A DNA stretch of 38,390 nt, taken from IMG/VR virus record IMGVR_UViG_3300050002_000026, positions 1 to 38,390 of that record; one strand, given 5' to 3'. The notes under the pieces were generated by a model. The model saw only the letters and a list, made by a program, of their open reading frames with translations. It searched no databases and was not told the origin of the DNA. The stretch comes from a virus. Of the stretch, positions 1-13,082 are shown piece by piece. Positions within the stretch are counted from its first letter, which is position 1. Each line of letters begins with the position of its first letter. The position numbers were made by a program, and so were the translations under genes.

Positions 1-85
1 TCCATGCGTCCTCGAAACTATCGTAATTGTCGTAGAAATCTAATGGTGGTTTACAAATATCAAATTGTCGTAAATCGAATTTCAT
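1..85 (-). CDS. Imm5-like array protein, copy 1 (partial)
   Basis: This is the first 28 codons of another array member; the rest lies beyond the left edge of the window. It starts MKFDLRQFDICKPPLDFYDN and runs into the family signature DSFEDAW. Its start overlaps the stop of the next gene in an ATGA junction, as in every other array junction. The N-terminal segment (QFDICKPP) is a third variant beside the two main types in the array (LRPSQELLDFYDKYD and QFNVCEDGLIFYDNYD). It shows that the array continues leftward out of view. Confidence 0.75.
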   Translation of the reverse strand, partial: MKFDLRQFDICKPPLDFYDNYDSFEDAW

Positions 86-618
86 AATGTTTCGTTTATG
101 TGTTTAAATACTAATTCCGTTAAGATTTCCCTACATATATCAGAAGTTTGTTGTTGGTTATTCGTCTTTGAAGAAGAATCAGCAGAATAAGAATAAGAAT
201 AAGAAGAAGATGTAGCAGCAGCAGAAGCAGCAGCAGATGTAGCAGTAGCAGAAGCAGCAGCATAAGAAGCATAAGCAGGATAAACATCAGCCGCAGAAAA
301 TGCAGCAACAGCAGAGTCATAAGCTTCTTGTTTAGCTTCCTGTAACTCTTCTTCATTAGATTTGCCTAAACCGTATTGTTCTGATACCTCAACGGCATTT
401 ATACTCCTTATATCCTTCATCAGATGAATAACCGTTCTGGCACATCTGGATTTGGCTAAGGTTAATGTACGGAAGTCTATTTCTAATCTACCAGCAATCC
501 ACAGCATCCAATCTCCCCTTGCACAAGCATTCCAAGCGTCCTCAAAACTATCGTAATTGTCGTAGAAATCTAATAGTTCTTGACTAGGTGTTAATATTCG
601 TAAATCGAATTTCATCAT
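82..618 (-). CDS. Imm5-like putative immunity-family protein, copy 2
   Basis: The protein has 178 residues. The N-terminal part (1-85) carries the family signature DSFEDAWNACARGDWMLWIA, then RTLTLAKSRCARTVIHLMKD and AVEVSEQYGLGK. This resembles the widespread alpha-helical putative immunity protein family (Imm5-like), in which a W..C.R.DWMLWL core is followed by an alanine-rich stretch and a C-terminal C/TADI.R motif. Residues 100-150 are almost only Ala, Ser, Tyr and Thr. The tail has NNQQQTSDICREILTELVF. Two adjacent ATGs (618 and 615) are possible starts; the second matches the other copies. The function is unknown, and the family name reflects similarity, not demonstrated immunity. Residues 22-87 are identical to copy 4. 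Confidence 0.8.
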   Translation of the reverse strand: MMKFDLRILTPSQELLDFYDNYDSFEDAWNACARGDWMLWIAGRLEIDFRTLTLAKSRCARTVIHLMKDIRSINAVEVSEQYGLGKSNEEELQEAKQEAYDSAVAAFSAADVYPAYASYAAASATATSAAASAAATSSSYSYSYSADSSSKTNNQQQTSDICREILTELVFKHINETL

Positions 619-1193
619 GTTTGTTTTAGTTTATTAAATATTTCTTTTGTTAATAATTCCCTACAAATATCCGCAGTTTGTTGTTGATTATTTGACTTTG
701 CAATAACAGCATCAGTAGCAGAAGAAGAAGAGGCATAAACAGCATAAAATGAAGCATAAGAAGAAGCATAAAATGAAGCATAAAAAGCATCATAACCAAA
801 AGTAGCAGCAGCATAAGCAGCAGAAGAAGTAGCAGCAGAAGCACAATCAGTAGGATCAGCAGAAGCATAAACAGCAGCAGCAATATAAGCATCTTTAGCT
901 CTCTTATCCGCTCTCATTAGTTCTTCTTTAGTAGCCTTTCCTAGTCCGTATTGTTCTGATACCTCGACTGCATCCCGGCTCCTTTTATCTTTCATCAGGT
1001 GAATAACAGTTCTGGCATATCGGGATTTGGCTAAGATAAATATACGGCGATCTATTTCTAATCTACCAGCAATCCACAGCATCCAGTCTCCCCTTGGACA
1101 AGCATTCCATGCGTCCTCAAAACTATCGTATTTATCGTAGAAATCTAATAGTTCCTGACTAGGTCTTAATATTCGTAAATCGAATTTCATCAT
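615..1193 (-). CDS. Imm5-like putative immunity-family protein, copy 3
   Basis: The protein has 192 residues and the same plan: an N-terminal LRPSQELLDFYDKYDSFEDAW segment, the PRGDWMLWIAGRLEID core, a linker (EELMRADKRAKDAYIAAA), a low-complexity centre rich in Ala/Ser/Tyr/Phe at about 105-165, and the C-terminal NNQQQTADICRELLTKEIF block. The tail ends KLKQT rather than KHINETL. It overlaps copies 2 and 4 by ATGA-type junctions, so translation is probably coupled. A second ATG at 1190 is an equal start candidate. The centre includes a distinct run of FYASFYASSYASFYA, not seen in neighbours. The function is unknown. Confidence 0.8.
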   Translation of the reverse strand: MMKFDLRILRPSQELLDFYDKYDSFEDAWNACPRGDWMLWIAGRLEIDRRIFILAKSRYARTVIHLMKDKRSRDAVEVSEQYGLGKATKEELMRADKRAKDAYIAAAVYASADPTDCASAATSSAAYAAATFGYDAFYASFYASSYASFYAVYASSSSATDAVIAKSNNQQQTADICRELLTKEIFNKLKQT

Positions 1194-1705
1194 GTTTGGT
1201 TTACTTGTTTAAATACTAATTCCGTTAATAATTCTCTACATATATCAGAAGTTTGTTGTTGGTTATTTGACTTTGCAATAGCAGCATAACCAGCAGCAGC
1301 AGAAGAAGCAGCATAAGCAGCATAAAAAGCAGCAGAAGCATAAGCATAAGCAGCAGCATCATAAGCAGAAGCAGAAAAAGCATAAGCAGCAGCATAAGAG
1401 GCTTCATAAGCAGCAGCTTGATAAGCTTTATGTAACTCTTCTTCAGTAGCTTTGCCTAGCCCATATTGTTCTGATACCTCAACGGCATTTATACTCCTTA
1501 TATCCTTCATCAGATGAATAACCGTTCTGGCACATCTGGATTTGGCTAAGGTTAATGTACGGAAGTCTATTTCTAATCTACCAGCAATCCACAGCATCCA
1601 ATCTCCCCTTGCACAAGCATTCCAAGCGTCCTCAAAACTATCGTAATTGTCGTAGAATATTAATCCCTCTTCACAAACATTAAATTGTTTTAAATCTGGC
1701 TTCAT
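1190..1705 (-). CDS. Imm5-like putative immunity-family protein, copy 4
   Basis: The protein has 171 residues. The first 18 residues are the second N-terminal type (MKPDLKQFNVCEEGLIFYDN), but from DSFEDAWNACARGDW to YGLGK the sequence is identical to copy 2. This makes it a visible mosaic of two array lineages. The centre (about 95-145) alternates Ala with Tyr, Ser and Phe, encoded by GCT, TAT and TCT codons. The C-terminal block is NNQQQTSDICRELLTELVF. Its start overlaps the stop of the YqaJ-type nuclease gene by four bases, so array and recombination genes form one operon. The function is unknown. Confidence 0.8.
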   Translation of the reverse strand: MKPDLKQFNVCEEGLIFYDNYDSFEDAWNACARGDWMLWIAGRLEIDFRTLTLAKSRCARTVIHLMKDIRSINAVEVSEQYGLGKATEEELHKAYQAAAYEASYAAAYAFSASAYDAAAYAYASAAFYAAYAASSAAAGYAAIAKSNNQQQTSDICRELLTELVFKQVNQT

Positions 1706-2403
1706 AATTGTTCTATTGCTTTTAAAACTTTTCTCGTTAATTCCTTGTTCAATTCATCTGTAACTTCAAATTCAAACATATTAATATTGCTATATTTGCT
1801 ATTATCTGGAATATATGGCATTTGTTCTATATTTGATTCTTGAAACCATTCGTAATAAATTGGGTTTAGATCATGCTCATATAAAAAATCAGTCTCATTT
1901 ACTTTTTTAATTATTTCTATTAATTCAGATTTATATGGCATATAAGAAATAATTTCTGCTTTTTTTAGATTTAAGATAACGGCATTACTTACTACTTGCC
2001 AAAATTCAGAACTATGATATTTTTTTAAATAAATAACACTTTTTAATTTTAAAGCTTCACTTAAAGAAGTAAATGCTTTAGGATAATAACATTTTATTTC
2101 TGAAACTTTATTTTTTGGAACTACTAAATCAGGACTACCAGACCAGTAAGCCCCCCAAGACCTATGTTTAAATGTTTGTTTGTGAATTAATTGATATTTA
2201 GTACTTAACAGATCATATAATATATATTCCATTAGAGAACCCCATGACATTGCTTTGGTGTTAGCTTCCACATTCATAGACCGACCTAATAACCTAGAGA
2301 ATTTTACTTCTTCAACATAAGTATTAAATTTTGTATCACTACCCATTAATCGATGTATCTGGCTACTAGTGAACCGCCCTATCCTAAATTCATTATTATT
2401 CAT
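1702..2403 (-). CDS. YqaJ-type phage recombination exonuclease (lambda exo-like fold)
   Basis: This is a 233-residue PD-(D/E)XK nuclease of the YqaJ/lambda-exonuclease family. Such enzymes resect double-stranded ends 5' to 3' and hand the single strand to a RecT-type annealing protein. Motifs seen in order are FTSSQIHRLMG near residue 11, WGSLMEYILYDLL near 54 (helix glutamate), SGSPDLV near 88 (the PD aspartate), SEIKCYYPKAF near 102 (ExK) and FWQVVSNAVIL near 133 (the conserved glutamine that follows ExK in this fold). The length is typical of the family. It overlaps the RecT gene upstream by 8 bases and array copy 4 downstream by 4 bases. Confidence 0.85.
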   Translation of the reverse strand: MNNNEFRIGRFTSSQIHRLMGSDTKFNTYVEEVKFSRLLGRSMNVEANTKAMSWGSLMEYILYDLLSTKYQLIHKQTFKHRSWGAYWSGSPDLVVPKNKVSEIKCYYPKAFTSLSEALKLKSVIYLKKYHSSEFWQVVSNAVILNLKKAEIISYMPYKSELIEIIKKVNETDFLYEHDLNPIYYEWFQESNIEQMPYIPDNSKYSNINMFEFEVTDELNKELTRKVLKAIEQL

Positions 2404-3199
2404 ATTTCTTTAAAGCATTTATACATTTATCATAACTTGCTATTTCTTCAATTTCTAAAACCCTTTCTACAAATAGTGCGTCCTCGGCTTTAATTGATGA
2501 TTTGTTGTTGTCAAATAATTCCTGTAAATATTGTTTTTTATGATTAACATTAGATTGAACTTCCTGATGAGGTATATCTGTTACATCACCATCTGAAATA
2601 TTAGTCCCTTTAATCGTATTAAATAGCCATCTTTTTGCTTTTCTCTCTGCCTTACCTATCAGAGCATCATATGAAGTATATGGAGTTGATTTTATCGGGA
2701 AATCAATTGTTTGTTTTTTGATCGGTTCATCAAATAACCCCCACTGTACTTTAACGACAACATTTGCTACTTTAGAATTATTGGGTTGTCTGATTTCTGT
2801 ATAGCTAAAGTTTTTTTTCAACCCATCAATATTATCTAACAGAGCCGAAAAACCTTCTCTGGTCGGGTACATATTTCCGCCTATAATATTAAATTCATTC
2901 CCTGTAGGTTGTAACCCTAAAAACACTGCATCAATTAGACAATCCTTTACAATATCCTCTGAATATCCCGTACCTTTTTTTTTAGTTTTAAGATCTATAT
3001 CCTTATCTGTTTTAAAACCTAGTGATGACCCTTGTAATTTCATTATAGGGCCCATATATTGAGGTGTTAATTGTTGTCTTAATGTATCTATTGCAAGGCT
3101 CATAACAAATGCTTTTTCAAAGCCCTCTGCTTTCGAAAGCAGAACATTAGACACTTCTTTATCTATTTTTTTAGATATTTCTAATAATTTATTATCCAT
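2396..3199 (-). CDS. recT: RecT-family single-strand annealing protein
   Basis: This 267-residue RecT-family recombinase anneals complementary single strands made by the partner exonuclease. The family core is seen at about residues 80-200: YSEDIVKDCLIDAVFLGLQP, then EFNIIGGNMYPTREGFSALL, and the basic segment ALIGKAERKAKRWLFNTIKG. This is the usual RecT layout of a conserved beta-rich core with a variable acidic tail. It directly precedes the YqaJ-type nuclease (8-base overlap), the standard phage recombination pair. It lies inside the tandem array of immunity-like genes, so it may act on those repeats, which is inference. The start at 3199 is preceded by an A-rich leader. Confidence 0.87.
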   Translation of the reverse strand: MDNKLLEISKKIDKEVSNVLLSKAEGFEKAFVMSLAIDTLRQQLTPQYMGPIMKLQGSSLGFKTDKDIDLKTKKKGTGYSEDIVKDCLIDAVFLGLQPTGNEFNIIGGNMYPTREGFSALLDNIDGLKKNFSYTEIRQPNNSKVANVVVKVQWGLFDEPIKKQTIDFPIKSTPYTSYDALIGKAERKAKRWLFNTIKGTNISDGDVTDIPHQEVQSNVNHKKQYLQELFDNNKSSIKAEDALFVERVLEIEEIASYDKCINALKKYE

Positions 3200-3217
3200 T
3201 ATAAAAAACTTTTTTAA

Positions 3218-3499
3218 TTAAAAATTTGATTTATATTTATCGTATTCCTCTTTGTTCATGCGAACTACTGTACTTTCTTCTTTCAACAGATCATCAAATG
3301 AACAATTTGCGATTTCTTGTAGCTTAAACAAATGAAAAACTAAATCAGGAGCTTTTTTTCCCCAATTATTAATACTTGGAGCAGATACATTCAGCATTTT
3401 AGATAACGAGTTTTTTGTCATTTTTTTTTCATCTGGATTTAATGCATTCCATGATTCTATAACAAAATCAATATCTATTATATATTGTTTTTCAGACAT
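3218..3499 (-). CDS. Small helix-turn-helix protein
   Basis: The protein has 93 residues with one helix-turn-helix-like segment at about 28-55 (KNSLSKMLNVSAPSINNWGK). The pattern resembles XRE-type phage regulators, in which SAPSINNW would be the recognition helix. The rest is a short helical tail ending in an acidic and basic mix. It lies 18 bases upstream of recT and 1 base downstream of a tiny membrane gene, inside the same operon. It may be a regulator of the operon or an accessory DNA-binding protein; no operator can be assigned from the sequence. Confidence 0.65.
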   Translation of the reverse strand: MSEKQYIIDIDFVIESWNALNPDEKKMTKNSLSKMLNVSAPSINNWGKKAPDLVFHLFKLQEIANCSFDDLLKEESTVVRMNKEEYDKYKSNF

Positions 3500-3500
3500 A

Positions 3501-3626
3501 TTATTTTTGATTTTTAAAATGATTAGTAAATGATTCGTAGGATTTCATCATTATAATTATCCCTACACATAAGCCTATAATAAAGCTTAAAATAAGACCT
3601 ATAATAAATATTTTAATAGTGATCAT
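3501..3626 (-). CDS. Tiny single-pass membrane protein
   Basis: This 41-residue protein starts MITIKIFIIGLILSFIIGLC and continues VGIIIMM, giving one hydrophobic segment of about 25 residues. It is followed by a polar tail (KSYESFTNHFKNQK). The start overlaps the stop of array copy 5 in an ATGA junction, exactly like the junctions between array members. The stop is one base before the HTH gene. Its position and coupling make it a real gene, though I cannot name a family or a function. Confidence 0.6.
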   Translation of the reverse strand: MITIKIFIIGLILSFIIGLCVGIIIMMKSYESFTNHFKNQK

Positions 3627-4162
3627 AATGTTTGTTTTAGTTTTTTAAATACTTCTTCCGTCAAAATTTCCCTACATATATCAGCCGTTTGTTGTTGGTT
3701 ATTTAACTTTGCAATAGCAGCAGTAGCAGAAAAATCAGCAACAGCAGAAGCAGAAGCATCATAAGGAGCAGAAAAAGCAGCAGCAGAAGAAGCATAAGAA
3801 GCAGCAGCAGAAGCAGCATAAGCAGCATAAGAAGCAGCAGCAGCAGGAGCGGCATAAGAAGCAGCAACAGCCTCTTTATAAGCTTTATGTAGCTCTTCTT
3901 TAGTAGCTGTGCCTAGCCCATATTGTTCTGATACCTCAACGGCATTTATACTTCTTTTATCTTTCATCAAATCGATAACCGTTCTGGCACATCTGGATTT
4001 GGCTAAGGTTAATGTACGGAAGTCTATTTCTAATCTAGCCGCAATCCACAGCATCCAGTCTCCTCGAGGACAGGCATTCCAGGCGTCCTCAAAACTATCG
4101 TATTTGTCGTAGAAATCTAATAGTTCCCGACTAGGTCTTAATAATCTTAAATCGAATTTCAT
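3623..4162 (-). CDS. Imm5-like putative immunity-family protein, copy 5
   Basis: The protein has 179 residues, with the first N-terminal type (LRLLRPSRELLDFYDKYD). The core PRGDWMLWIAARLEIDFRTLTLAKSRCARTVIDLMKDKRS is followed by AVEVSEQYGLGTATKEELHKAY. The centre (about 95-148) is low-complexity Ala/Ser/Tyr, and the C-terminal block is NNQQQTADICREILTEEVF. It is the last copy before the recombination genes in the direction of transcription and overlaps the tiny membrane gene by four bases. A change from VIHLM to VIDLM is specific to this copy. The function is unknown. Confidence 0.8.
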   Translation of the reverse strand: MKFDLRLLRPSRELLDFYDKYDSFEDAWNACPRGDWMLWIAARLEIDFRTLTLAKSRCARTVIDLMKDKRSINAVEVSEQYGLGTATKEELHKAYKEAVAASYAAPAAAASYAAYAASAAASYASSAAAFSAPYDASASAVADFSATAAIAKLNNQQQTADICREILTEEVFKKLKQTL

Positions 4163-4728
4163 AATGTTTCGTTTATGTGTTTAAATACTAATTCCGTTAA
4201 GATTTCCCTGCATATATCAGCCGTTTGTCGTTCGTTATTCACCTTTGCAGTAGTAGCAACAACAGCTTTATCATAAGCAGCAGAAGCAACACTAGCAGAA
4301 AAAGCAGCAGAAAAAGCAGCAGAAGCAGAAAAAGCAGCAGCATCACAAGCAGAAAAAGCATCAGCAGAAGCAGCATAAAAAGCAGCATAAGAAGAAGCAT
4401 AAGCAGAAGAAGCATAAGCAGAAGAAGAAGAAAAAGCATCTTGATAAGCTTTATGTAACTCTTCTTTAGTAGCTGTGCCTAGCCCATATTGTTCTGATAC
4501 CTCAACTGCATTCCGGCTCTTTTCATCTTCCATCAAATGAATGACTGTTCTAGCACATCGGGATTTGGCTAAGGTCAATATACGGTGATCTACTTTTAAT
4601 TTAGCCGCTATCCACAGCATCCAGTCTCCTCGAGGACAGGCATTCCATGCGTCCTCGAAACTATCGTAATTGTCGTAGAATATTAATCCGTCTTCACAAA
4701 CATTAAATTGTGTTAAATCGAATTTCAT
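4159..4728 (-). CDS. Imm5-like putative immunity-family protein, copy 6
   Basis: The protein has 189 residues with the second N-terminal type (LTQFNVCEDGLIFYDN). The core WIAAKLKVDHRILTLAKSRC is shared with copy 7. The centre is one of the longest in the array (about 95-160), with runs such as SSSSAYASSAYASSYAAFYA and AFSASAAFSAAFSASVASAA. The end of the centre (SAAYDKAVVATTAKVNNERQ) is shared with the fused copies 8a and 8b, which suggests exchange of the 3' part between copies. The C-terminal block is ERQTADICREILTELVF. Both junctions are ATGA overlaps. The function is unknown. Confidence 0.8.
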   Translation of the reverse strand: MKFDLTQFNVCEDGLIFYDNYDSFEDAWNACPRGDWMLWIAAKLKVDHRILTLAKSRCARTVIHLMEDEKSRNAVEVSEQYGLGTATKEELHKAYQDAFSSSSAYASSAYASSYAAFYAASADAFSACDAAAFSASAAFSAAFSASVASAAYDKAVVATTAKVNNERQTADICREILTELVFKHINETL

Positions 4729-5276
4729 AATGTTTGTTTTATCTGTTTAAATACTAATTCCGTTAAAATTTCCCTGCATATATCAGCCGTTTGTCGTTCG
4801 TTATTCTCCTTTGCAGTAGCATAAGCCTCAGAAGCATCAAAAAAAGCAGCAGCATAAGCAGTAGCATAAGAAGCATAAGTAGCAGCAATAGAAAAATCCT
4901 CAGAATCCGGAGCAGCAGCAGAAAAAGCAGCAACAGCAGCAGCAGTAGCAGCAGAAGAAGCAGAAGCAATATAAGCATCTTTAGCTCCCTTATCCGCTTT
5001 CATTAATTCTTCTTTAGTAGCCTTTCCTAGCCCGTATTGTTCTGATACCTCGACTGCATCCCGGCTCCTTTTATCTTTCATCAGGTGAATAACCGTTCTG
5101 GCACATCTGGATTTGGCTAAAGTCAATATACGGTGATCTACTTTTAATTTATGTGCTATCCACAGCATCCAGTCTCCTCGAGGACAGGCATTCCATGCGT
5201 CCTCGAAACTATCGTAATTGTCGTAGAATATTAATCCGTCTTCACAAACATTAAATTGTGTTAAATCGAATTTCAT
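4725..5276 (-). CDS. Imm5-like putative immunity-family protein, copy 7
   Basis: The protein has 183 residues with the second N-terminal type, almost identical to copy 6 through residue 60. The linker after the core (KDKRSRDAVEVSEQYGLGKA, then EELMKADKGAKDAYIA) instead matches copy 3. The centre is richer in Thr, Val, Pro and Glu than its neighbours (APDSEDFSIAATYASYATAY). The C-terminal block is NNERQTADICREILTELVF. The mixture of copy 6-like and copy 3-like parts is a further sign of recombination between copies. The function is unknown. Confidence 0.8.
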   Translation of the reverse strand: MKFDLTQFNVCEDGLIFYDNYDSFEDAWNACPRGDWMLWIAHKLKVDHRILTLAKSRCARTVIHLMKDKRSRDAVEVSEQYGLGKATKEELMKADKGAKDAYIASASSAATAAAVAAFSAAAPDSEDFSIAATYASYATAYAAAFFDASEAYATAKENNERQTADICREILTELVFKQIKQTL

Positions 5277-6382
5277 AATGTTTGTTTTATCTGTTTAAAT
5301 ACTAATTCCGTTAAAATTTCCCTGCATATATCAGCGGTTTGTTGTTGGTTATTTGACTCTGCAGTAATAGCAACAACAGCTTTATCATAAGCAGCAGAAG
5401 CAAGACTAGCAGAAAAAGCAGCAGAAGCAGCATAAGCAGCAGCAGCATCAGCAGAAAAAGCATCAGAAGAAGAAGAACAAAAAGCAGCATAAGCAGCAGC
5501 ATCATAAGCAGAAGAATAAGAAGAAAAAGCATAAGCATCATAAGCCTCTTGATAAGCTTTATGTAACTCTTCTTTAGAAGCTTTGCCTAGCCCATATTGT
5601 TCTGATATCTCAACTGAATTCCGGCTCTTTTCATGTTCCATCAAATGAATGACTGTTCTAGTACATCGGGATTTAGCTAAAGTCAATATACGGAAGTCAA
5701 TATCTAATTTAGTCGCAATCGATAACATCCAATCGCCCCTTGGACAAGCATTCCAGGCGTCCTCAAAACTATCGTATTTATCGTAGAAATCTAATAGTTC
5801 TTGACTAGGTCTTAATACTCTTAAATCGAATTTTATAATGTTTTGTTTTAGTTTATTAAATATTTCTTCTGTTAAAACTTCCCTACATATATCAGCCGTT
5901 TGTCGTTCGTTATTCTCCTTTGCAGTAGTAGCAACAACAACTTTATCATAAGCAGCAGAAGCAAGACTAGCAGAAAAAGCAGCAGAAGCAGAAAAAGCAG
6001 CAGAAGCATCAGCAGAAAAAGCATCAGCATCCGAAGCAACATAAGCAGCAGCAGCAGCAGCAGAAGAAGAAAAAGCATAAGCATCATAAGCCTCTTGATA
6101 AGCTTTATATAACTCTTCTTCAGTAGCTGTGCCTAGCCCATATTGTTCTGATATCTCAACTGAATTCCGGCTATTTTCATCTTCCATTAAATGAATTACG
6201 GTTCTGGCACATCTGGATTGGGCTAAGATAAATATACGCTTGTCAATATCTAATTTAGCCGCAATCGATAACATCCAATCGCCCCTTGGACAAGCATTCC
6301 AGGCGTCCTCAAAACTATCGTATTTATCGTAGAAATCTAATAGTTCTTGACTAGGTCTTAATAATCTTAAATCGAATTTCAT
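5273..6382 (-). CDS. Imm5-like protein, two copies (8a and 8b) fused in frame
   Basis: This 369-residue protein consists of two complete family units in one reading frame: copy 8a (residues 1-182) and copy 8b (183-369). At the junction (5834-5850) the usual AAACAAACATTATGA overlap reads AAACAAAACATTATAAAA. One extra A moves the upstream frame into the downstream one, and the downstream ATG has become ATA, so stop and start are both lost. Each half has its own PRGDWMLSIA core, low-complexity centre and QTADICRE tail. Both halves carry WMLSIA rather than WMLWIA, a variant shared with copy 9. The fusion shows that a two-unit product is tolerated. The function is unknown. Confidence 0.8.
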   Translation of the reverse strand: MKFDLRLLRPSQELLDFYDKYDSFEDAWNACPRGDWMLSIAAKLDIDKRIFILAQSRCARTVIHLMEDENSRNSVEISEQYGLGTATEEELYKAYQEAYDAYAFSSSAAAAAAYVASDADAFSADASAAFSASAAFSASLASAAYDKVVVATTAKENNERQTADICREVLTEEIFNKLKQNIIKFDLRVLRPSQELLDFYDKYDSFEDAWNACPRGDWMLSIATKLDIDFRILTLAKSRCTRTVIHLMEHEKSRNSVEISEQYGLGKASKEELHKAYQEAYDAYAFSSYSSAYDAAAYAAFCSSSSDAFSADAAAAYAASAAFSASLASAAYDKAVVAITAESNNQQQTADICREILTELVFKQIKQTL

Positions 6383-6879
6383 AATGTTTGGTTTATTTGT
6401 TTAAATACTAATTCCGTTAATAATTCTCTACATATATCAGCCGTTTGTTGTTGGTTATTCACCCTTGCAGTAGTAGTAGCAACAGCATTATCATAAGCAG
6501 CAGAAGAAGCATTATCATAAGCAGAAGCAGGAGCAGCACCAGCAGCATAAGCAGCAGAAGCATTATCATAAGCAGAAGCATAACCAGCATCTTGGTAAGC
6601 TTTATATAACTCTTCTTTAGAAGCTTTTCCTAGCCCAGATAGTTCTGATACCTCAACTGCATTCCGGCTCTTTTCATGTTCCATCAAATGAATGACTGTT
6701 CTAGTACATCGGGATTTAGCTAAAGTCAATATACGCTTGTCAACATCTAATTTAGCCGCAATCGATAACATCCAATCGCCCCTCGGACAGGCATTCCAGG
6801 CGTCCTCGAAACTATCGTAATTATTGTAGAAATCTAATAGTTCTTGACTAGGTGTTAATACTCTTAAATCGAATTTCAT
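6379..6879 (-). CDS. Imm5-like putative immunity-family protein, copy 9 (first of the operon)
   Basis: This 166-residue protein is the shortest member and the first to be transcribed. It has N-terminal type one (LRVLTPSQELLDFYNNYD) with the WMLSIAAKLDVDKRILTLAK core and SELSGLGKA where others have SEQYGLG. The centre is short and built from a repeated motif AYDNASAAYA / AYDNASSAAYDNA. The C-terminal block is NNQQQTADICRELLTELVF. It lies downstream of a terminator and a weak promoter-like box at 6905-6912, so it probably opens the array operon. The function is unknown. Confidence 0.8.
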   Translation of the reverse strand: MKFDLRVLTPSQELLDFYNNYDSFEDAWNACPRGDWMLSIAAKLDVDKRILTLAKSRCTRTVIHLMEHEKSRNAVEVSELSGLGKASKEELYKAYQDAGYASAYDNASAAYAAGAAPASAYDNASSAAYDNAVATTTARVNNQQQTADICRELLTELVFKQINQTL

Positions 6880-6904
6880 AATGTTTTGTTGTTTGTTTAT
6901 AGCG

Positions 6905-6912
6905 TAAAGATA
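6905..6912 (-). promoter_or_regulatory. Possible promoter of the array operon
   Basis: The minus strand reads TATCTTTA, one base off the Bacteroidota -7 consensus TAnnTTTG. It lies about 25 bases upstream of the first array start codon and just downstream of a terminator. No clear -33 box is visible in the AT-rich sequence upstream. Confidence 0.4.
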
Positions 6913-6943
6913 TAAAAATATATTTAAAGATTAAAATATATTT

Positions 6944-6976
6944 TAAAAAAAGCTCAATAAAATACATTATTGAGCT
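6944..6976 (-). terminator. Intrinsic terminator after the spike gene
   Basis: On the minus strand AGCTCAATA (6968-6976) pairs with TATTGAGCT (6951-6959), and the hairpin is followed by seven Ts. It separates the 7057-8051 gene group from the array operon. Confidence 0.75.
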
Positions 6977-7056
6977 TATAAACAAACATACATGCTATGC
7001 GAAGATCAACATGAATTACAAATATAATGTTTTATCTTAGATATTACAATATGTCA

Positions 7057-8400: not shown

Positions 8401-8412
8401 CTTGCAGGGTAT

Positions 8413-8514
8413 AAAAAAACCCAGTTGATTTCTTGGAGTTCAACTAGGTTCTTGTATTCACTACTCAGCGTAGCATAAATATCTTATTTAAAGTGACCCG
8501 TGAAATCAACACAG
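8413..8514 (-). ncRNA. Tandem small RNA unit C
   Basis: The unit has a promoter box TATATTTG (8515-8522), a 5' segment containing GTTGATTTCACGG, a small hairpin CTAC-GCTGA-GTAG, and a terminator stem (8419-8428 with 8440-8449) followed by seven Ts. The terminator stem is fully paired only on the minus strand, using one G-U pair. The predicted RNA is about 100 nt. Its 5' segment is perfectly complementary over 13 bases to the terminator arm of unit B (8550-8562). Confidence 0.5.
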
Positions 8515-8538
8515 CAAATATAATAAAAATTATTAAAT

Positions 8539-8640
8539 AAAAAAACCCAGTTGATTTCACGGAGTTCAACTAGGTTCTTGTATTCACTACTTAGCGTAGC
8601 ATAAATATCTTAGGTAAATTGATCTCCAAGATCAACACAG
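8539..8640 (-). ncRNA. Tandem small RNA unit B
   Basis: Same plan as unit C, exactly 126 bp upstream: promoter box TATATTTG (8641-8648), a 5' hairpin TTGATC-TTGGA-GATCAA, the CTAC-GCTAA-GTAG hairpin, and a terminator (8545-8554 with 8566-8575) with a T run. The 5' hairpin contains CTTGGAG, complementary to CTCCAAG in the terminator loop of unit C. Confidence 0.5.
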
Positions 8641-8664
8641 CAAATATAATAAAAATTATTAAAT

Positions 8665-8742
8665 AAAAAAACCCAGTTGATTTCTCGCAGTTCAACTAGG
8701 TTTAGTTTAGGATTTGCTCAATCTATACTCAGATCAATACTA
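8665..8742 (-). ncRNA. Tandem small RNA unit A (shorter, diverged)
   Basis: Third unit at the same 126-bp terminator spacing. It has a promoter box TATATTTG (8743-8750) and a terminator (8671-8680 with 8692-8701) with the same stem but a different loop (CTGCGAG). The middle part is diverged and shorter, lacking the CTACGCT hairpin. The predicted RNA is about 75 nt. Confidence 0.45.
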
Positions 8743-8768: not shown

Positions 8769-8791
8769 GGTAACTATATATTAGTTTACAC
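8769..8791 (+). repeat. Left terminal inverted repeat of the transposon
   Basis: The 23 bases are the exact reverse complement of 13060-13082. They begin with GG, as expected for an outer transposon end. Confidence 0.8.
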
Positions 8792-8892
8792 CAATATTAA
8801 AAAAACACACTCTCATCCCTTATGAACACTAGCTTTCATGTTGTATAAAAATATTTTTATATATTTGTAATATAATTTTGAAAGCAATTCAC

Positions 8893-8927
8893 AAAAAAAG
8901 AGCTCCGCTATAACACGGAGCTCTTTT
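8893..8927 (-). terminator. Intrinsic terminator after the 9007-9201 gene
   Basis: A 12-bp stem (AAAAGAGCTCCG with CGGAGCTCTTTT) is followed on the minus strand by a run of seven Ts. It would end minus-strand transcripts of the transposon before they reach the left inverted repeat. Confidence 0.75.
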
Positions 8928-9006
8928 GATTAATAGCCGGTTTTTAATATAAACCAATCATCAAGTTAAGTATGAAAAAACTTTAAACAAATATAGAAAA
9001 AAATAT

Positions 9007-9201
9007 TTAAAACATTTCTTCATACCTTTCTTCTATAATATCCAATACCCTAACAAATTTTTTTCTGTTCTCAGCCTCCCTGTTCATAGTAACGTCAGGG
9101 TCTATATATTTCTTCCCCTGTTCTATTGTTTCGGCGGTTTTTAGCAAATCATTTTGAATGATAATCAATTCATGTAACTCTAATTCTTCTAATTTTCTCA
9201 T
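9007..9201 (-). CDS. Small helical protein of unknown function
   Basis: The protein has 64 residues and is highly charged and predicted helical: MRKLEELELHELIIIQNDLL near the start and FVRVLDIIEERYEEMF at the end. There is no signal or membrane segment. It has its own promoter box (9228-9235), the start follows an AAACATACG leader, and the strong terminator at 8893-8927 follows. The pattern of acidic and leucine residues suggests a helical bundle or a protein partner. I do not recognise a family. It lies at the left end of the transposon and would be cargo. Confidence 0.6.
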   Translation of the reverse strand: MRKLEELELHELIIIQNDLLKTAETIEQGKKYIDPDVTMNREAENRKKFVRVLDIIEERYEEMF

Positions 9202-9227
9202 CGTATGTTTATTTTAAAACTGTAATT

Positions 9228-9235
9228 CAAATTTA
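9228..9235 (-). promoter_or_regulatory. Promoter box of the 9007-9201 gene
   Basis: The minus strand reads TAAATTTG, matching TAnnTTTG, 27 bases upstream of the start codon. Confidence 0.5.
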
Positions 9236-9286
9236 TATATATTTTGAATACATACATTACGGTTTCCCGTAGTTAATTATAACAAA

Positions 9287-9311
9287 TGAAAAACCCCTAA
9301 TTAAAGGGGTT
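9287..9311 (-). terminator. Terminator-like hairpin (unit x)
   Basis: AACCCCT pairs with AGGGGTT around a 6-base loop, followed by five Ts on the minus strand. It ends a stretch (9312-9420) without a clear frame that may be a short RNA. A weakly promoter-like sequence lies near 9380. Confidence 0.5.
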
Positions 9312-9420
9312 CCACAATTAGTTCTTAAGAAGATGATCCCCCAACTTCAAAAAAACATTATTGCTTAATAAATGATACTATAAAAGCATAAATATAATTT
9401 TATTTAATACTAAATTTTAA

Positions 9421-9562
9421 TGCCCCAGCATGTATACCGGGGCATCAATGTTCCTAAAGATCCTACCCTTTAAACCAAAAAAGAGAAACACCAAATCATA
9501 TAATCATAAAAAAAAGTAGGTGTTTCCCATAAGACCTTAAGAACATTACAATACAAAAATGA
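9421..9562 (-). ncRNA. Candidate structured RNA y in the transposon
   Basis: Read on the minus strand, an outer stem pairs 9535-9547 with 9447-9459 (about 13 pairs, two of them G-U). It encloses a perfect inner stem GAAACACC/GGTGTTTC (9519-9526 with 9485-9492). A GC-rich hairpin TGCCCC/GGGGCA (9421-9444) follows. A promoter-like TACTTTTA lies at 9568-9575. The G-U pairs favour the minus strand. The T-tract is weak, so termination is uncertain. No known RNA family is recognised. Confidence 0.4.
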
Positions 9563-9667
9563 TGGTATAAAAGTATAAAAATAATTTAAATATATAAAGA
9601 TAATTTTGTACTTTTATTTAATAAGAAAAAAGATATGTTTAAGTTGTGGATTATTTTATCGAATTTA

Positions 9668-9800
9668 AAAGCCCCGGTTTTCAAGCGGGGCTTTCATGTC
9701 TCAGGTATTACATATTAAAAAAGGGGTTACTCCTTGATTAATAATAGAAAAAAAACATGAATAGAAGCATTTTCCTATAACACCTTATCAACATATTCTG
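9668..9800 (-). ncRNA. Candidate structured RNA z in the transposon
   Basis: A promoter box TATATTTG (9804-9811, minus) precedes about 130 bases without a convincing frame, ending in the hairpin AAAGCCCCG/CGGGGCTTT (9668-9694) and a T-rich tail. Its 5' part (TGTTGATAAGGTGTTATAGG) resembles that of unit y (TGTTCTTAAGGTCTTATGGG), so y and z look like relatives arranged in tandem. Confidence 0.4.
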
Positions 9801-9846
9801 GCGCAAATATATAAAAATAATTTTAATACATAAAAATAAATTAAAA

Positions 9847-10259
9847 TTAATTTTTATTTAAAATTTTATACTTAGAAAAGTACTTTCCAGCCAATGAAAG
9901 TATTGTTGATGCAAAAAGTATTCTTTCAATAGACTGTACATTTTTTTGATTTAACCACCTGTAGTATTTTGGGGCAACTAGATGATAAAACCAAATTACT
10001 ATTAATATACATAAAAGAATAGATAAAAGATATATCAGAACTCTAGCTACAAAAAAAAGGCTTTTTCTAATTTGATTCCATGATGCCCATCTAAATGCTT
10101 CCTTTCGTTATCCCAATTTTTATCTTCTTTTTTGGCTAATTGTTTGTCATCATCATTAAAGTTACTACCTGTTTTGTTTGATTTATCTAATACTGATAAA
10201 GAACCCTCTCCTATAGAATTAAACTCTTCTTTAATTGAATCTGCCGCCTTACTAGCCAT
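9847..10259 (-). CDS. Membrane protein, probable Panacea-associated toxin, interrupted at a T8 run
   Basis: The first frame (10259-10047) gives 70 residues and stops just after KAFFL. If the T8 tract (10051-10058) is read as nine Ts, translation continues as VARVLIYLLSILLCILIVIW, then FYHLVAPKYYRWLNQ, then IERILFASTILSLAGKYF, to a stop at 9847. That yields about 140 residues with one clear membrane helix and a second amphipathic or membrane segment. The start overlaps the Panacea antitoxin stop by 8 bases, the usual coupling of antitoxin and toxin. Panacea antitoxins are known to pair with diverse toxins, including membrane-active ones. The break may be phase variation, transcriptional slippage, an inactivating mutation or a sequencing error; the sequence alone does not decide. 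Confidence 0.55.
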
Positions 10260-10767
10260 TAACTATTGTAGATTGCTCTTTATTGAGTAATAACTTTTTT
10301 TTATAGTAATCTTTAATTAAATTACCAGGTATTTGTCCTGAAACAACCCCAAAATTTGTTTTATTGCTTGCTTGTCTTTGTAAATACCCTTGCCAAACTT
10401 GGAACCAAGGAGTTCCCGTTTGATGTGTTAAAGAACTTAATTCTATACCACTTAACCCCCCATATGTATCCCAAATCTTACGTAAAAAACTTTTGATTTC
10501 TTCTGGAAGTATTTTATCAGGGTCGCTTGGGAAAGCTTTTATCTTAATTGGAGACCTCCCAAAAGGCTTAAAATGATGATAAATCCTTGGTATAACTGGA
10601 CCATATTTCCAAGCTTCAGGGTTTTCATCAATAAGAGGATTGCCTGTAATGCCTATATACCAACCATGTGATATATACACCAATTTTACTAATTTCATTG
10701 GTGTTATATCATAATCTTGTCCATAATTTTTAAGGAAGAAATATGATATGTCTATAGGGTTATACAT
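10252..10767 (-). CDS. Panacea-domain (DUF4065, SocA-like) antitoxin
   Basis: This 171-residue protein spans the Panacea domain. Family features are an N-terminal IDISYFFLKNYG, then ITPMKLVKLVYISHGWYI (the conserved K-L-x-Y-x-xH-G helix), PEAWKYGPVIPRIYHHFKPF and the C-terminal LSSLTHQTGTPWFQVWQGY. In proteins of this family the domain neutralises very different toxins encoded next to it. It forms an operon with the overlapping membrane gene downstream. A promoter box lies at 10785-10792, and a 10-bp inverted repeat (10774-10783 and 10840-10849) brackets it, suggesting autoregulation. It is cargo of the transposon. Confidence 0.85.
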   Translation of the reverse strand: MYNPIDISYFFLKNYGQDYDITPMKLVKLVYISHGWYIGITGNPLIDENPEAWKYGPVIPRIYHHFKPFGRSPIKIKAFPSDPDKILPEEIKSFLRKIWDTYGGLSGIELSSLTHQTGTPWFQVWQGYLQRQASNKTNFGVVSGQIPGNLIKDYYKKKLLLNKEQSTIVNG

Positions 10768-10773
10768 TACAAG

Positions 10774-10849
10774 GATAGTTTAATCAAATATAGTAAATTA
10801 AACATTTAAGTTTAAAAATAATTTTAAATAATTTATCTGTTAAACTATC
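10774..10849. promoter_or_regulatory. Promoter and possible operator of the Panacea operon
   Basis: The minus strand reads TATATTTG at 10785-10792, 18 bases before the start codon. GATAGTTTAA (10774-10783) and its reverse complement TTAAACTATC (10840-10849) bracket the promoter. The second arm is also 9 bases from the plus-strand promoter at 10858, so a bound protein could affect both directions. Confidence 0.5.
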
Positions 10850-10857
10850 TTTTTTTC

Positions 10858-10865
10858 TATCTTTG
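10858..10865 (+). promoter_or_regulatory. Promoter box of RNA p1
   Basis: TATCTTTG matches TAnnTTTG exactly. The same TTTCTATCTTTGTAAAAGA context occurs at 11271-11288, so two small transcription units share a promoter type. Confidence 0.55.
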
Positions 10866-10870
10866 TAAAA

Positions 10871-11016
10871 GAAGGGAATGCCTAATCACTCCCTAATTTA
10901 GAGCTTTTTACAAGAAAATACTTGCAAGAACTCTAACAACTAAAATAATAAAAGGTTTTAAAACCTTTATTGTTTTTGACTTATTAATATTTATTTTAAT
11001 ATTATAAGTCTTTTTT
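10871..11016 (+). ncRNA. Candidate small RNA p1
   Basis: About 145 bases without a convincing frame. They start after a TATCTTTG box and contain a hairpin AGGGA/TCCCT (10873-10894), a long hairpin 10899-10935 (TAGAG...CAAG with CTTG...CTCTA, two mismatches) and a palindrome AAAGGTTTTAAAACCTTT. They end in a strong terminator (10978-10991 with 10998-11010, then six Ts). Promoter, structure and terminator on one strand support a real RNA gene. Confidence 0.5.
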
Positions 11017-11020
11017 AATT

Positions 11021-11165
11021 GTGTTTTGGTTCCCATAATTAAAATGATTTAATCCCCAGGTCATGAATAGTAGAAGATTAATATCAGACCTGGGAACAAT
11101 ATTAACACTACAGCTACAGTATGTAGCTTAAAGCCTCGCATTAGGACGAGGCTTTTTCTTTTTAA
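11021..11165 (+). ncRNA. Candidate small RNA p2
   Basis: This stretch holds CCCAGGTC (11055-11062) pairing with GACCTGGG (11087-11094), a hairpin AGCTAC-AGTAT-GTAGCT, and a terminator AAGCCTCG/CGAGGCTT (11131-11154) with a T-rich tail. An upstream GTTCCCA (11029-11035) could instead pair with TGGGAAC (11091-11097), an alternative fold. No clear promoter is visible; it may arise from readthrough of p1. Confidence 0.4.
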
Positions 11166-11273
11166 AATGTTTGTTTATCAAATATTTTAAAAAATCAATT
11201 TTAAATATGATGCCAAAGCTCAAATATATTAAAACAAATGTTAAGGTTTAAAAATAATTTTAACTTATTTTTC

Positions 11274-11281
11274 TATCTTTG
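11274..11281 (+). promoter_or_regulatory. Promoter box of RNA p3
   Basis: TATCTTTG, in the same sequence context as the box at 10858-10865, with a shared GTTTAAAAATAATTTTAA block upstream. Confidence 0.5.
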
Positions 11282-11286
11282 TAAAA

Positions 11287-11363
11287 GATAAACTTATTAA
11301 AATTAAGTTTTATTAAATTGGCAAGCAGATTAAAGCCCCGTATGATAGGACGGGGCTTTTCTT
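11287..11363 (+). ncRNA. Candidate small RNA p3
   Basis: About 75 bases from promoter to terminator: a hairpin AAACTTA/TAAGTTT followed by the strong terminator AAAGCCCCG/CGGGGCTTT (11332-11340 with 11351-11359) with a T-run. The terminator loop (TATGATAGGA) resembles that of p2 (CATTAGGA). There is no room for a protein of useful size. Confidence 0.5.
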
Positions 11364-11385
11364 GATCATATATATACTTTTCCAT

Positions 11386-11487
11386 TTATTGTTTTCCTCT
11401 GGCTTTTTGAATTCTAGCTAGAATTTCATATGTTTCTTGCTCTTCTTCTGGCGTAGCATCCCTCCACACTGCGTTTTCAAATAGCAC
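11386..11487 (-). CDS. Possible 33-residue protein or gene remnant
   Basis: An open frame reads LFENAVWRDATPEEEQETYE and ends ILARIQKARGKQ. The composition and the WRDATPEEEQET pattern look like a real helical protein rather than chance. There is no ATG; a GTG at 11487 is the only start in reach, and it overlaps a TATATTTG sequence. So this may be the 3' remnant of a larger gene, with low confidence. Confidence 0.3.
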   Translation of the reverse strand: MLFENAVWRDATPEEEQETYEILARIQKARGKQ

Positions 11488-11539
11488 AAATATATTAAAA
11501 ATAATTTTAAACATATTTGTATATTGTGTAATTAACTTC

Positions 11540-11547
11540 TATATTTG
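11540..11547 (+). promoter_or_regulatory. Transposase promoter
   Basis: TATATTTG matches the Bacteroidota -7 box. A TTTG lies 20 bases upstream at the -33 position. The start codon is 30 bases downstream, after an AAACAAACATT leader. Confidence 0.65.
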
Positions 11548-11577
11548 TACTATAAACAAACCATAAAAACAAACATT

Positions 11578-12492
11578 ATGAAGCTAGATCAAGAATTTAA
11601 TTCAATAATAGACCTTGTAAATACTTTTCCAGATCAACAGTCCTGTATTGATTATTTAGAAAAGGTTAGATGGCCCGAAGAAGTTATAAGTCCTTTTGAC
11701 GCTTCTTCTAAGGTATATAAGTGTAAGGGTAACAAATACAGGTGTAAGAACACCAATAAATATTTCAATGTTAAAACAGGTACCATGTTTGATAACACGA
11801 AGCTTCCTTTGCAAAAATGGTTTTTGGCGATCTGGTTGATTACTTCTCATAAGAAAGGTATTTCTTCATTACAGTTGGGTAGAGATATAAACATAACCCA
11901 GAAATCTGCATGGTTCATGCTACAAAGGATTAGGGCCTGTTTTGGGATTGAAGATGAAATGTTGGAAGATGAAGTAGAAATGGATGAAGCATTTATTGGA
12001 GGAAAAAATAAGAATCGTCACGAACACAAAAAAGTTAAGAACGCACAGGGGCGCAGTTTAAAGGACAAAACTCCTGTTGTTGGTATGGTGCAGAGGGAAG
12101 GTAAATTAAAGGCGTTTAAAACAGAGAATACTAAGAAAAAAACATTAACAGAACAAGCAGTAAACAATATCAAAAAAGACTCTATTATATATACAGATGA
12201 ATGGAAGGGGTATAATGGGCTAAAAAAAGTATATGATCATTCAACGATAAAACACAAGAAAAAGGAATACGTAAGGGGTAGGGTTCATACAAATACAATT
12301 GAGGGCTTCTGGTCGTTGTTAAAGCGTGGTATTGATGGGATATATCATTCTGTCTCGACAAAACATTTACAAAAATATGTGGATGAATTTGTCTTCAGAT
12401 ATAATTCAAGGAGACATAGCGAATATGAGAGGTTCAATATGTTTTTTTGGAATTTAGAAAACAGGTTAACTTATAACGAATTAATTAAATAA
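11578..12492 (+). CDS. IS1595-family (ISXO2-like) transposase
   Basis: The protein has 304 residues from the ATG at 11578, chosen because it follows AAACAAACATT; an upstream in-frame ATG at 11545 lies on the promoter. The N-terminal zinc-ribbon-like region (VYKCKGNKYRCKNTNKYFNV, TGTMFDNTKL) has lost part of the cysteine set of canonical members, a form common in Bacteroidota. A helix-turn-helix follows (SSLQLGRDINITQKSAWFML). The DDE catalytic core is intact: D136 (EVEMDEAFIGG), D207 (IIYTDEWKGY), E242 and K249 (HTNTIEGFWSLLKRG). It is on the plus strand, against the phage late genes, inside 23-bp inverted repeats, and is likely active. Confidence 0.9.
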   Translation: MKLDQEFNSIIDLVNTFPDQQSCIDYLEKVRWPEEVISPFDASSKVYKCKGNKYRCKNTNKYFNVKTGTMFDNTKLPLQKWFLAIWLITSHKKGISSLQLGRDINITQKSAWFMLQRIRACFGIEDEMLEDEVEMDEAFIGGKNKNRHEHKKVKNAQGRSLKDKTPVVGMVQREGKLKAFKTENTKKKTLTEQAVNNIKKDSIIYTDEWKGYNGLKKVYDHSTIKHKKKEYVRGRVHTNTIEGFWSLLKRGIDGIYHSVSTKHLQKYVDEFVFRYNSRRHSEYERFNMFFWNLENRLTYNELIK

Positions 12493-12495
12493 CAT

Positions 12496-12615
12496 ATGAA
12501 AAAACAACAAGAAGAGGAAGAAGAAGAAAAATCACTAACTGATTTTGAAAAACAGATACGCAGGGCCCTTAATTGGAACCCTAATGAAGATAAAAATAAA
12601 AAAGCCCCCGATTGA
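12496..12615 (+). CDS. Small acidic protein after the transposase
   Basis: The protein has 39 residues: MKKQQEEEEEEKSLTDFEKQ, then IRRALNWNPNEDKNKKAPD. It has a charged N-terminus and a short amphipathic helix. It begins 3 bases after the transposase stop and ends inside the terminator stem at 12601-12626, so it would share the transposase transcript. No family is recognised; it may be a transposon accessory protein. Confidence 0.45.
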   Translation: MKKQQEEEEEEKSLTDFEKQIRRALNWNPNEDKNKKAPD

Positions 12616-12626
12616 GGGCTTTTTTT
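12601..12626 (+). terminator. Terminator between transposase and the convergent membrane gene
   Basis: AAAGCCC pairs with GGGCTTT around CCGATTGA, with T-runs on the plus side and A-runs before the stem, so it can stop transcripts from both directions. Confidence 0.75.
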
Positions 12627-12670
12627 ATGTATTTCATCTTCTTTGTTTTTAACATTAAATGATACATCTG

Positions 12671-12979
12671 TTAAAAATGTATCCCTACATTTTTAGCCTC
12701 TTGTTTCTCTATATTTTTCCACTTCTTATAGTTCTCTTCATCTTTAGCTTGCAAAAATGCAGCAGAAATAATTCCAGCCTGTAGATATGCCTGTAATTTA
12801 TCCCCGTTCCTCTTGGCAATATCATACTGGTCTATAGCTTCATTGGCAACCTCTAGTTCAATACTATCTATAGAATTTGATAACATGGTACTCATAAAAT
12901 CCCTGCCTCCAAATGAGATAAGAATAATAATCACCATAATAATAAATCCCGTAAAAATGAATTTAAAAAATTTTTTCAT
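12671..12979 (-). CDS. Small membrane-anchored protein at the right end of the transposon
   Basis: The protein has 102 residues from the ATG at 12979, preferred over 13030 because it follows an AAACAAACACG leader and a promoter box. The N-terminus MKKFFKFIFTGFIIMVIIIL forms one membrane anchor. The rest is a soluble, mostly helical domain (SIELEVANEAIDQYDIAKRN, then LQAYLQAGIISAAFLQAKDE) resembling a TPR-like helical hairpin. I do not recognise a family. It has its own promoter and is convergent with the transposase. As cargo next to the inverted repeat it may be an envelope-acting or regulatory accessory gene. Confidence 0.6.
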   Translation of the reverse strand: MKKFFKFIFTGFIIMVIIILISFGGRDFMSTMLSNSIDSIELEVANEAIDQYDIAKRNGDKLQAYLQAGIISAAFLQAKDEENYKKWKNIEKQEAKNVGIHF

Positions 12980-13004
12980 CGTGTTTGTTTTTAAAATTAT
13001 ATGA

Positions 13005-13012
13005 CAAACATA
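13005..13012 (-). promoter_or_regulatory. Promoter box of the 12671-12979 gene
   Basis: The minus strand reads TATGTTTG, matching TAnnTTTG, 26 bases before the chosen start codon. Confidence 0.5.
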
Positions 13013-13059
13013 GAAAAAAAAATTAAACAAAAATGAGGTTTATCCGTAAATAAAATCTA

Positions 13060-13082
13060 GTGTAAACTAATATATAGTTACC
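13060..13082 (-). repeat. Right terminal inverted repeat of the transposon
   Basis: Exact reverse complement of 8769-8791. The adjacent outer bases 13083-13090 (ttaaacaa) match the left flank ttaaacat at seven of eight positions, and they include the hub stop codon. Confidence 0.8.

Follow-up and report, generated by a model that had tools for sequence, protein, structure and literature searches.

Ten copies of one gene family lie on the minus strand at the left end of IMGVR_UViG_3300050002_000026, a 38,390-base virus record of IMG/VR that was analysed over its whole length (the window). We consider it about an even chance that this locus is a phage-borne relative of homogeneous polyimmunity loci, in which triplet-repeat turnover and recombination between paralogues would diversify ten lineage-specific, Imm5-like-related paralogues into a repertoire of binders. 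The record belongs to a contractile-tailed phage, with terminase, portal, protease, major head protein, tail sheath, tape measure and baseplate genes. The terminase-to-baseplate genes run from the right end of the window on the same strand as the ten-copy family.

Organisation of the ten-copy locus

The initial annotation had described ten copies lying head to tail, one of them cut by the window edge, and joined by ATGA overlaps. Nine full copies and a tenth cut by the contig edge were recovered, each full copy matching the family profile at 4e-27 or better, far above chance. They do not form one uninterrupted array, as copies 1 to 6 (6879-3623) and copies 7 to 10 (1705-1) are separate blocks with about 1.9 kb containing four other genes (1702-3626) between them. 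Seven of the copy-copy junctions are 4-bp ATGA overlaps, while no such overlap occurs where copies 2 and 3 are fused. The ten copies all differ from one another, with a mean column difference of 31% spread over the whole length, and all reading frames are intact.

Copy 1, the first gene of the unit, encodes 166 amino acids (aa) at 6379-6879 and has its variable centre at about 6460-6606. Copy 2 (5837-6382, centre about 5915-6109) and copy 3 (5273-5836, centre about 5354-5563) are the first and second halves of a single 369-aa open reading frame (ORF) at 5273-6382. The first block continues with copy 4 (183 aa, 4725-5276, centre about 4806-5003), copy 5 (189 aa, 4159-4728, centre about 4240-4455) and copy 6 (179 aa, 3623-4162, centre about 3704-3889). 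The second block holds copy 7 (171 aa, 1190-1705, centre about 1268-1432), copy 8 (192 aa, 615-1193, centre about 693-917), copy 9 (178 aa, 82-618, centre about 163-342) and copy 10 (1-85), of which only the first 28 codons precede the contig end.

The fusion of copies 2 and 3 results from a change of the copy 3 start codon from ATG to ATA together with an extra A that moves the end of copy 2 into the frame of copy 3. These two changes jointly keep both halves open, which argues against a sequencing error. Polyimmunity proteins with fused immunity domains have been described (PMC3482391). An intrinsic terminator with an 11-bp stem and a T run, also on the minus strand, lies just upstream of copy 1 (6950-6977; one found against 0.1 expected), and the array therefore heads its own transcription unit, the promoter of which is presumably held in the AT-rich interval 6880-6949.

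Conserved frame and variable centre

Each copy consists of about 20 N-terminal residues, a conserved core extending to about residue 91, a centre of 49-75 residues across the window copies, and a conserved C-terminal block carrying Q-T-A/S-D-I-C-R-E. The conserved N-terminal core, the QTADICRE-type block and the centre rich in Ala, Ser, Tyr and Phe named in the initial annotation are thus all present in the alignment. The copies were also said to differ mainly in the centre and in the first 18 residues, and both statements were borne out. Amino acid identity among these lineage-specific paralogues is 78% in the scaffold against 44% in the centre, and the first 20 or so residues fall into two types. 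The same contrast was seen in the arrays of two uncultured phages, G068 (84 against 50%) and G072 (85 against 54%). The ratio of nonsynonymous to synonymous substitution rates (dN/dS) in the window copies was 0.15 in the core and 0.12 in the C-terminal block compared to 0.81 in the N-terminal 20 residues.

A structure was predicted with AlphaFold for copy 5 using an alignment of 70 window and locus proteins. The predicted model is an all-helical frame with a predicted local distance difference test (pLDDT) score of 85-96 over residues 1-100 and 92-98 over residues 161-189, and the centre is predicted to be helical with low confidence (pLDDT 46-59). In the centres, spacings of 1, 2 and 5 between aromatic residues are avoided, while a spacing of 4 and, weakly, one of 3 are preferred, as for residues on one helix face. 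A fold search of the model against the PDB matched no solved structure. A Foldseek search of viral models (BFVD) gave as best matches uncharacterised phage proteins and, at rank 2, one phage protein named as an Imm-5-like domain protein, the latter being a weak match (probability 1.00, E 0.039, template modelling score 0.43).

A degenerate triplet repeat in the centre

The centre is a degenerate GCT (CTG-type) repeat consisting in the window almost only of NNT codons (496 of 574), with GCT, TCT, TAT or GAT accounting for 402 of the 574. Alanine was written GCT in 216 of 231 cases in the window centres and in 25 of 64 in the core. Across 123 centres in loci of the family the mean entropy of the third codon base was 0.60 bits compared to 1.07 and 1.21 for the first and second, while in the cores the three positions were alike (1.82 bits for base 3 and 1.86 and 1.96 for bases 1 and 2). 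Most phages favoured T as the third base and the remainder C or G, independent of the usage in the core, and repeat units were duplicated inside centres.

Among 87 GCT-type centres, codons one step from GCT included 989 that changed the amino acid and 184 that were synonymous, where the genetic code alone predicts a ratio of 2:1. When only distinct codon types were counted, a measure that is not inflated by unit duplication, amino-acid-changing types were over-represented in 58 loci and under-represented in 17 (p 2e-6). The DNA therefore acts as a triplet repeat while selection keeps amino acid changes. A (GCT)n tract is a CTG repeat, which forms hairpins and slips in both directions during DNA synthesis (PMC3310812). 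Strand slippage is inferred as the mutational route by which the centres change.

Diversity-generating retroelements are superficially alike, as codon bases 1 and 2 vary and base 3 is fixed. An element of this kind, with a variable region of fixed length, adenine-specific changes and a matching template repeat, was rejected for the sequence available. A scan of window ORFs, nearly all of those of 200 aa or more among them, revealed no reverse transcriptase within the view that the contig end allows, and no template-like copy outside genes was seen in repeat searches of the window, which were not exhaustive. The centres span 49 to 75 codons with in-frame insertions and deletions (indels), and differ from such retroelements in their varying length and in a third base that is T in some phages and C in others.

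Changes between sister phages and between copies

Changes confined to the centre were seen between closely related phages. Contigs L135 and L137 share 99.8% identity over 8.3 kb, with no difference in the frame, core or C-terminus of their family genes, but substitutions and in-frame indels (48 and 6 bases) separate the two centres. A 27-bp in-frame insertion distinguishes L102 and L107. Within the window, the cores of copies 7 and 9 have 98% identical DNA, including 194 identical bases in a row, while their N-termini are 65% and their centres 70% identical. The pairwise homoplasy index (PHI) was significant for the window copies (p=0.0005), and the copies are mosaics. The suggestion of the initial annotation that the locus is a system for producing a varied protein repertoire is reasonable at this level, given the centre-focused differences and the in-frame changes of the sister phages, although no dedicated diversity generator was shown.

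Distribution, copy number and independent arrays

Relatives were collected by degenerate-pattern scans of viral and genome contigs aimed at the core. One viral scan yielded 163 confirmed relatives, a scan of bacterial and archaeal genomes yielded 24 loci, and two of 395 sampled Bacteroidota genomes had family matches, so the family is mainly phage-borne. The genes next to the relatives, named by reading cluster representatives, were phage replication and early genes (a DnaB-like helicase, a methylase, a primase-like protein and a YqaJ exonuclease among others), nearly always on the same strand and with no constant partner.

The family had been regarded as single-copy, and a tandem series of this size inside a recombination operon as unusual. 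One copy was indeed found in 69 of the 80 full records of relatives and in all six named reference phage records, but two copies were present in eight records, and three, five and nine in one each. This comparison includes no close relative of the window phage itself, none having been found, and the terminase relatives of the window phage were short fragments without copies. The recombination genes in the window interrupt the array and do not contain it. The nine-copy G068 (L176, L177) and five-copy G072 (L178) have the anatomy of the window copies; in both, the genes lie scattered in small groups on a single strand, and the G068 contig stops at one of them. In a tree of 88 cores the window, G068 and G072 copies each formed one clade (100/99, 97/95 and 100/100, respectively), and expansion, or continuing homogenisation, therefore took place separately in at least three phages. 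With arrays present in other phages and no two of the ten window copies alike, the refuting case named in the initial annotation, single copies in all relatives or an artefact of assembly, does not apply.

Contigs ended at genes of the family ten times as often as expected by chance. A core was located within 500 bp of a contig end in 20 of 60 records of at least 15 kb, where 2.0 were expected, and a comparable end position was found in none of 11 RecT-like control contigs of at least 15 kb; the copy numbers are therefore probably underestimates. G001 and G005 have family genes at both contig ends, the pattern expected of a circular genome that was opened at the locus.

A separate observation, from a comparison of L147 with L021 and L116, concerns a contig binned as a Maribacter metagenome-assembled genome, which is 100% identical over 8.3 kb to the IMG/VR contig 3300005663_000078. 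The IMG/VR record is cut inside a repeat centre that the Maribacter-binned contig spans, and a near-identical repeat unit follows.

Family identity

The window copies had no match to the Pfam model PF21805 (Imm5_like, curated cut-off 25 bits) even at E 10, and no Pfam or NCBIfam model was assigned to them. Ser_hydrolase, HEAT_Nup120, DSBA and other weak Pfam and NCBIfam matches were rejected as composition noise. Three relatives, L050 (30.5 bits), L047 (30.1 bits) and L044 (26.2 bits), pass the Imm5_like cut-off and match the window family profile, and an Imm5_like match at E 0.01 or better was obtained for two of 70 aligned relatives. The Imm5-like assignment of the initial annotation thus stands only distantly, by way of these intermediates, while no window copy matches any Imm5 model in Pfam or NCBIfam. 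The name therefore denotes a distant, transitive relation and is not to be taken as a function. An Ala-rich C-terminal part is shared with the Imm5_like family, whereas the window branch has a longer variable centre and a C-terminal NQxxTADICRE block.

The window copies directly matched PHROG 18326 (E 1e-9 to 1e-19), a family of unknown function that includes a single-copy gene of Caudoviricetes sp. vir526 and is defined without array or repeat biology. The copies tested did not match any PADLOC defence model, and no Rfam family reached its gathering score in the window, two sub-threshold Rfam matches (E 0.015-0.06) being judged to be chance. A literature search on Imm-5-like phage proteins and on alanine or triplet repeats in phages found nothing relevant.

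Genes between the two blocks and other elements of the window

The four genes between the blocks are also on the minus strand. A 41-aa ORF (3501-3626), with a hydrophobic, membrane-like segment noted by inspection only, has an ATGA overlap with copy 6 and is followed by a helix-turn-helix (Cro/C1-type) protein of 93 aa (3218-3499; HTH_26 E 0.0011, just below the Pfam cut-off), a probable single-strand annealing protein (2396-3199) and a YqaJ/RecE-type exonuclease of 233 aa (1702-2403; PF09588 22.9 bits, cut-off 22) that is ATGA-joined to copy 7. The protein encoded at 2396-3199 had no family match in profile searches. The human RAD52 core recurred, weakly, among the top PDB matches of its AlphaFold model (pLDDT 85; best E about 0.01), and on the basis of this model the family is probably an unrecognised branch of single-strand annealing proteins. 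Fourteen viral relatives of this protein, 43-59% identical, were found.

A 4.3-kb stretch at 8769-13082 is bounded by a perfect 23-nt inverted repeat (GGTAACTATATATTAGTTTACAC) and flanked at both ends by TTAAACA, a probable target duplication. Within it lie genes for an IS1595-type transposase (11545-12492, PF12762 E 2e-47) and a Panacea/SocA-like protein (10252-10767), together with stretches that are poor in ORFs and have terminator-like hairpins. The whole resembles a cargo-bearing transposon of the IS1595 type that has inserted into the phage. Just outside its left inverted repeat, a non-coding 126-nt unit is repeated 2.3 times at about 90% identity (8411-8702).

Interpretation and alternative explanations

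In the proposed mechanism, each protein has a conserved all-helical frame (about residues 1-100 and a long C-terminal helix) that carries a helical centre; this centre is hypervariable and based on Ala, with Tyr, Ser, Asp and Phe set into it. Slippage of the GCT repeat would lengthen or shorten the centre with the reading frame kept, and selection would retain changes at codon positions 1 and 2 that turn Ala into Ser, Asp, Tyr, Phe or Val. The conserved cores would give the homology for copies to recombine, swapping N-termini, centres and C-termini, and the neighbouring annealing protein and exonuclease may aid this process. The outcome would be a repertoire of binding surfaces, which would most likely serve, at an early stage of infection, to capture and neutralise host proteins that vary, as counter-defence or as immunity of the infected cell. 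This role is suggested by the early location, the arms-race-like variation and the distant Imm5 homology. The array is thus suggestive, though not proof, of a repertoire of proteins that bind host targets which vary.

A more specific version is that the coding trinucleotide repeat itself serves as a variation engine, CNG slippage and tandem-copy recombination continually rewriting a Tyr/Ser/Asp helical binding surface on a fixed frame, so that the phage would have a repertoire with a restricted alphabet against host defences that change fast; we put this forward tentatively as a possibility. Synthetic antibody libraries built on the KMT codon (Ala, Asp, Ser and Tyr) resemble such an engine in principle.

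Among known systems, homogeneous polyimmunity loci (Zhang et al. 2012, PMC3482391) are alike in having tandem same-strand paralogues of one immunity-like family, probably in one transcript, with occasional fusion of copies, copy number varying between relatives (1 to 9 in the 80 family records here) and recombination genes nearby, with the limit that the term immunity family applies to the window copies through distant homology only. The window array differs from them in being in a phage, in having no toxin association and in that its copies differ mainly in a triplet-repeat centre, and Imm5 is not among the families listed there as prominent in homogeneous loci (PMC3482391). The esaG and tipC tandem immunity arrays of Firmicutes (Garrett et al. 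2022, PMC9484751) have up to about a dozen non-identical copies, with recombination of paralogues through conserved blocks, but are chromosomal with known cognate toxins, and no codon-repeat centre is described in the abstract of that paper. Recombination of the esaG type fits the window, with its PHI result and 194-bp identical core.

Several results weigh against the repertoire interpretation. PHI was not significant among the G068 or the G072 copies. No recurring toxin gene was found among the neighbours of the relatives, and no defence gene or other target was linked to them. Zero family copies were found in 17 records of the closest RecT-like and YqaJ exonuclease relatives, so the link to recombination genes is not conserved. 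The uniformity of the third base could partly reflect recent unit duplication with few mutations, and metagenome assemblies can garble triplet repeats. The centres are also not always fast to change, as five contigs from different samples (L128, L129, L130, L131 and L133) have a family gene with 100% identical DNA while their upstream DNA differs at 54-63 of 400 bases, a pattern pointing to recent horizontal exchange of the single gene between phages.

This last observation would also fit a mostly non-adaptive origin, in which slippage and unequal crossing-over between copies account for the growth of the centre as well as of the copy number. The Ala-rich centre would then be a helical spacer that tolerates change, and its variation would have no role in specificity. 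The membership of (GCN)n in the slippage-prone CNG triplet class, the duplicated repeat units within centres and the erratic copy number across phages are in keeping with such an origin. This origin is nevertheless rather unlikely, since amino-acid-changing codons exceed synonymous ones relative to mutational opportunity, the aromatic residues hold a helical spacing, three separate expansions were found, and all cores are under purifying selection, so that ten working copies are maintained.

It was judged unlikely that the array is a true polyimmunity locus, with proteins that counteract polymorphic toxins, interbacterial ones for example, and shield the host cell during infection or lysogeny. 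The distant Imm5_like homology through intermediates is compatible with such a locus, the tandem same-strand paralogues and the fused double protein fit published loci and proteins (PMC3482391), and tandem esaG paralogues of S. aureus recombine via conserved blocks (PMC9484751). Against this, the Imm5 label is itself a computational prediction, there is no toxin gene nearby, the family is found mostly in phages with few matches in Bacteroidota genomes, and it sits among replication genes and not typical lysogenic-conversion genes. An assembly artefact, in which one or a few genes were multiplied by repeat misassembly, is very improbable even with contigs breaking at family genes and the identical run common to copies 7 and 9, given that the copies differ along their whole length in intact, ATGA-joined frames, that contigs of other samples hold arrays of five and nine non-identical copies, and that breakage would lower the apparent copy number and not raise it.

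Implications for the family

When a gene family keeps its frame constant but varies at a binding surface, this is usually the sign of an arms race. The present family is common in uncultured phages and has been under-counted as assemblies break there. If the centres bind host factors, the family would offer many ready-made, naturally diversified binders, and would have an unusual engine of diversity, a coding triplet repeat in which the third base is held while the first two vary. The family also allows direct tests of whether phages have taken over arrays of the polyimmunity type.

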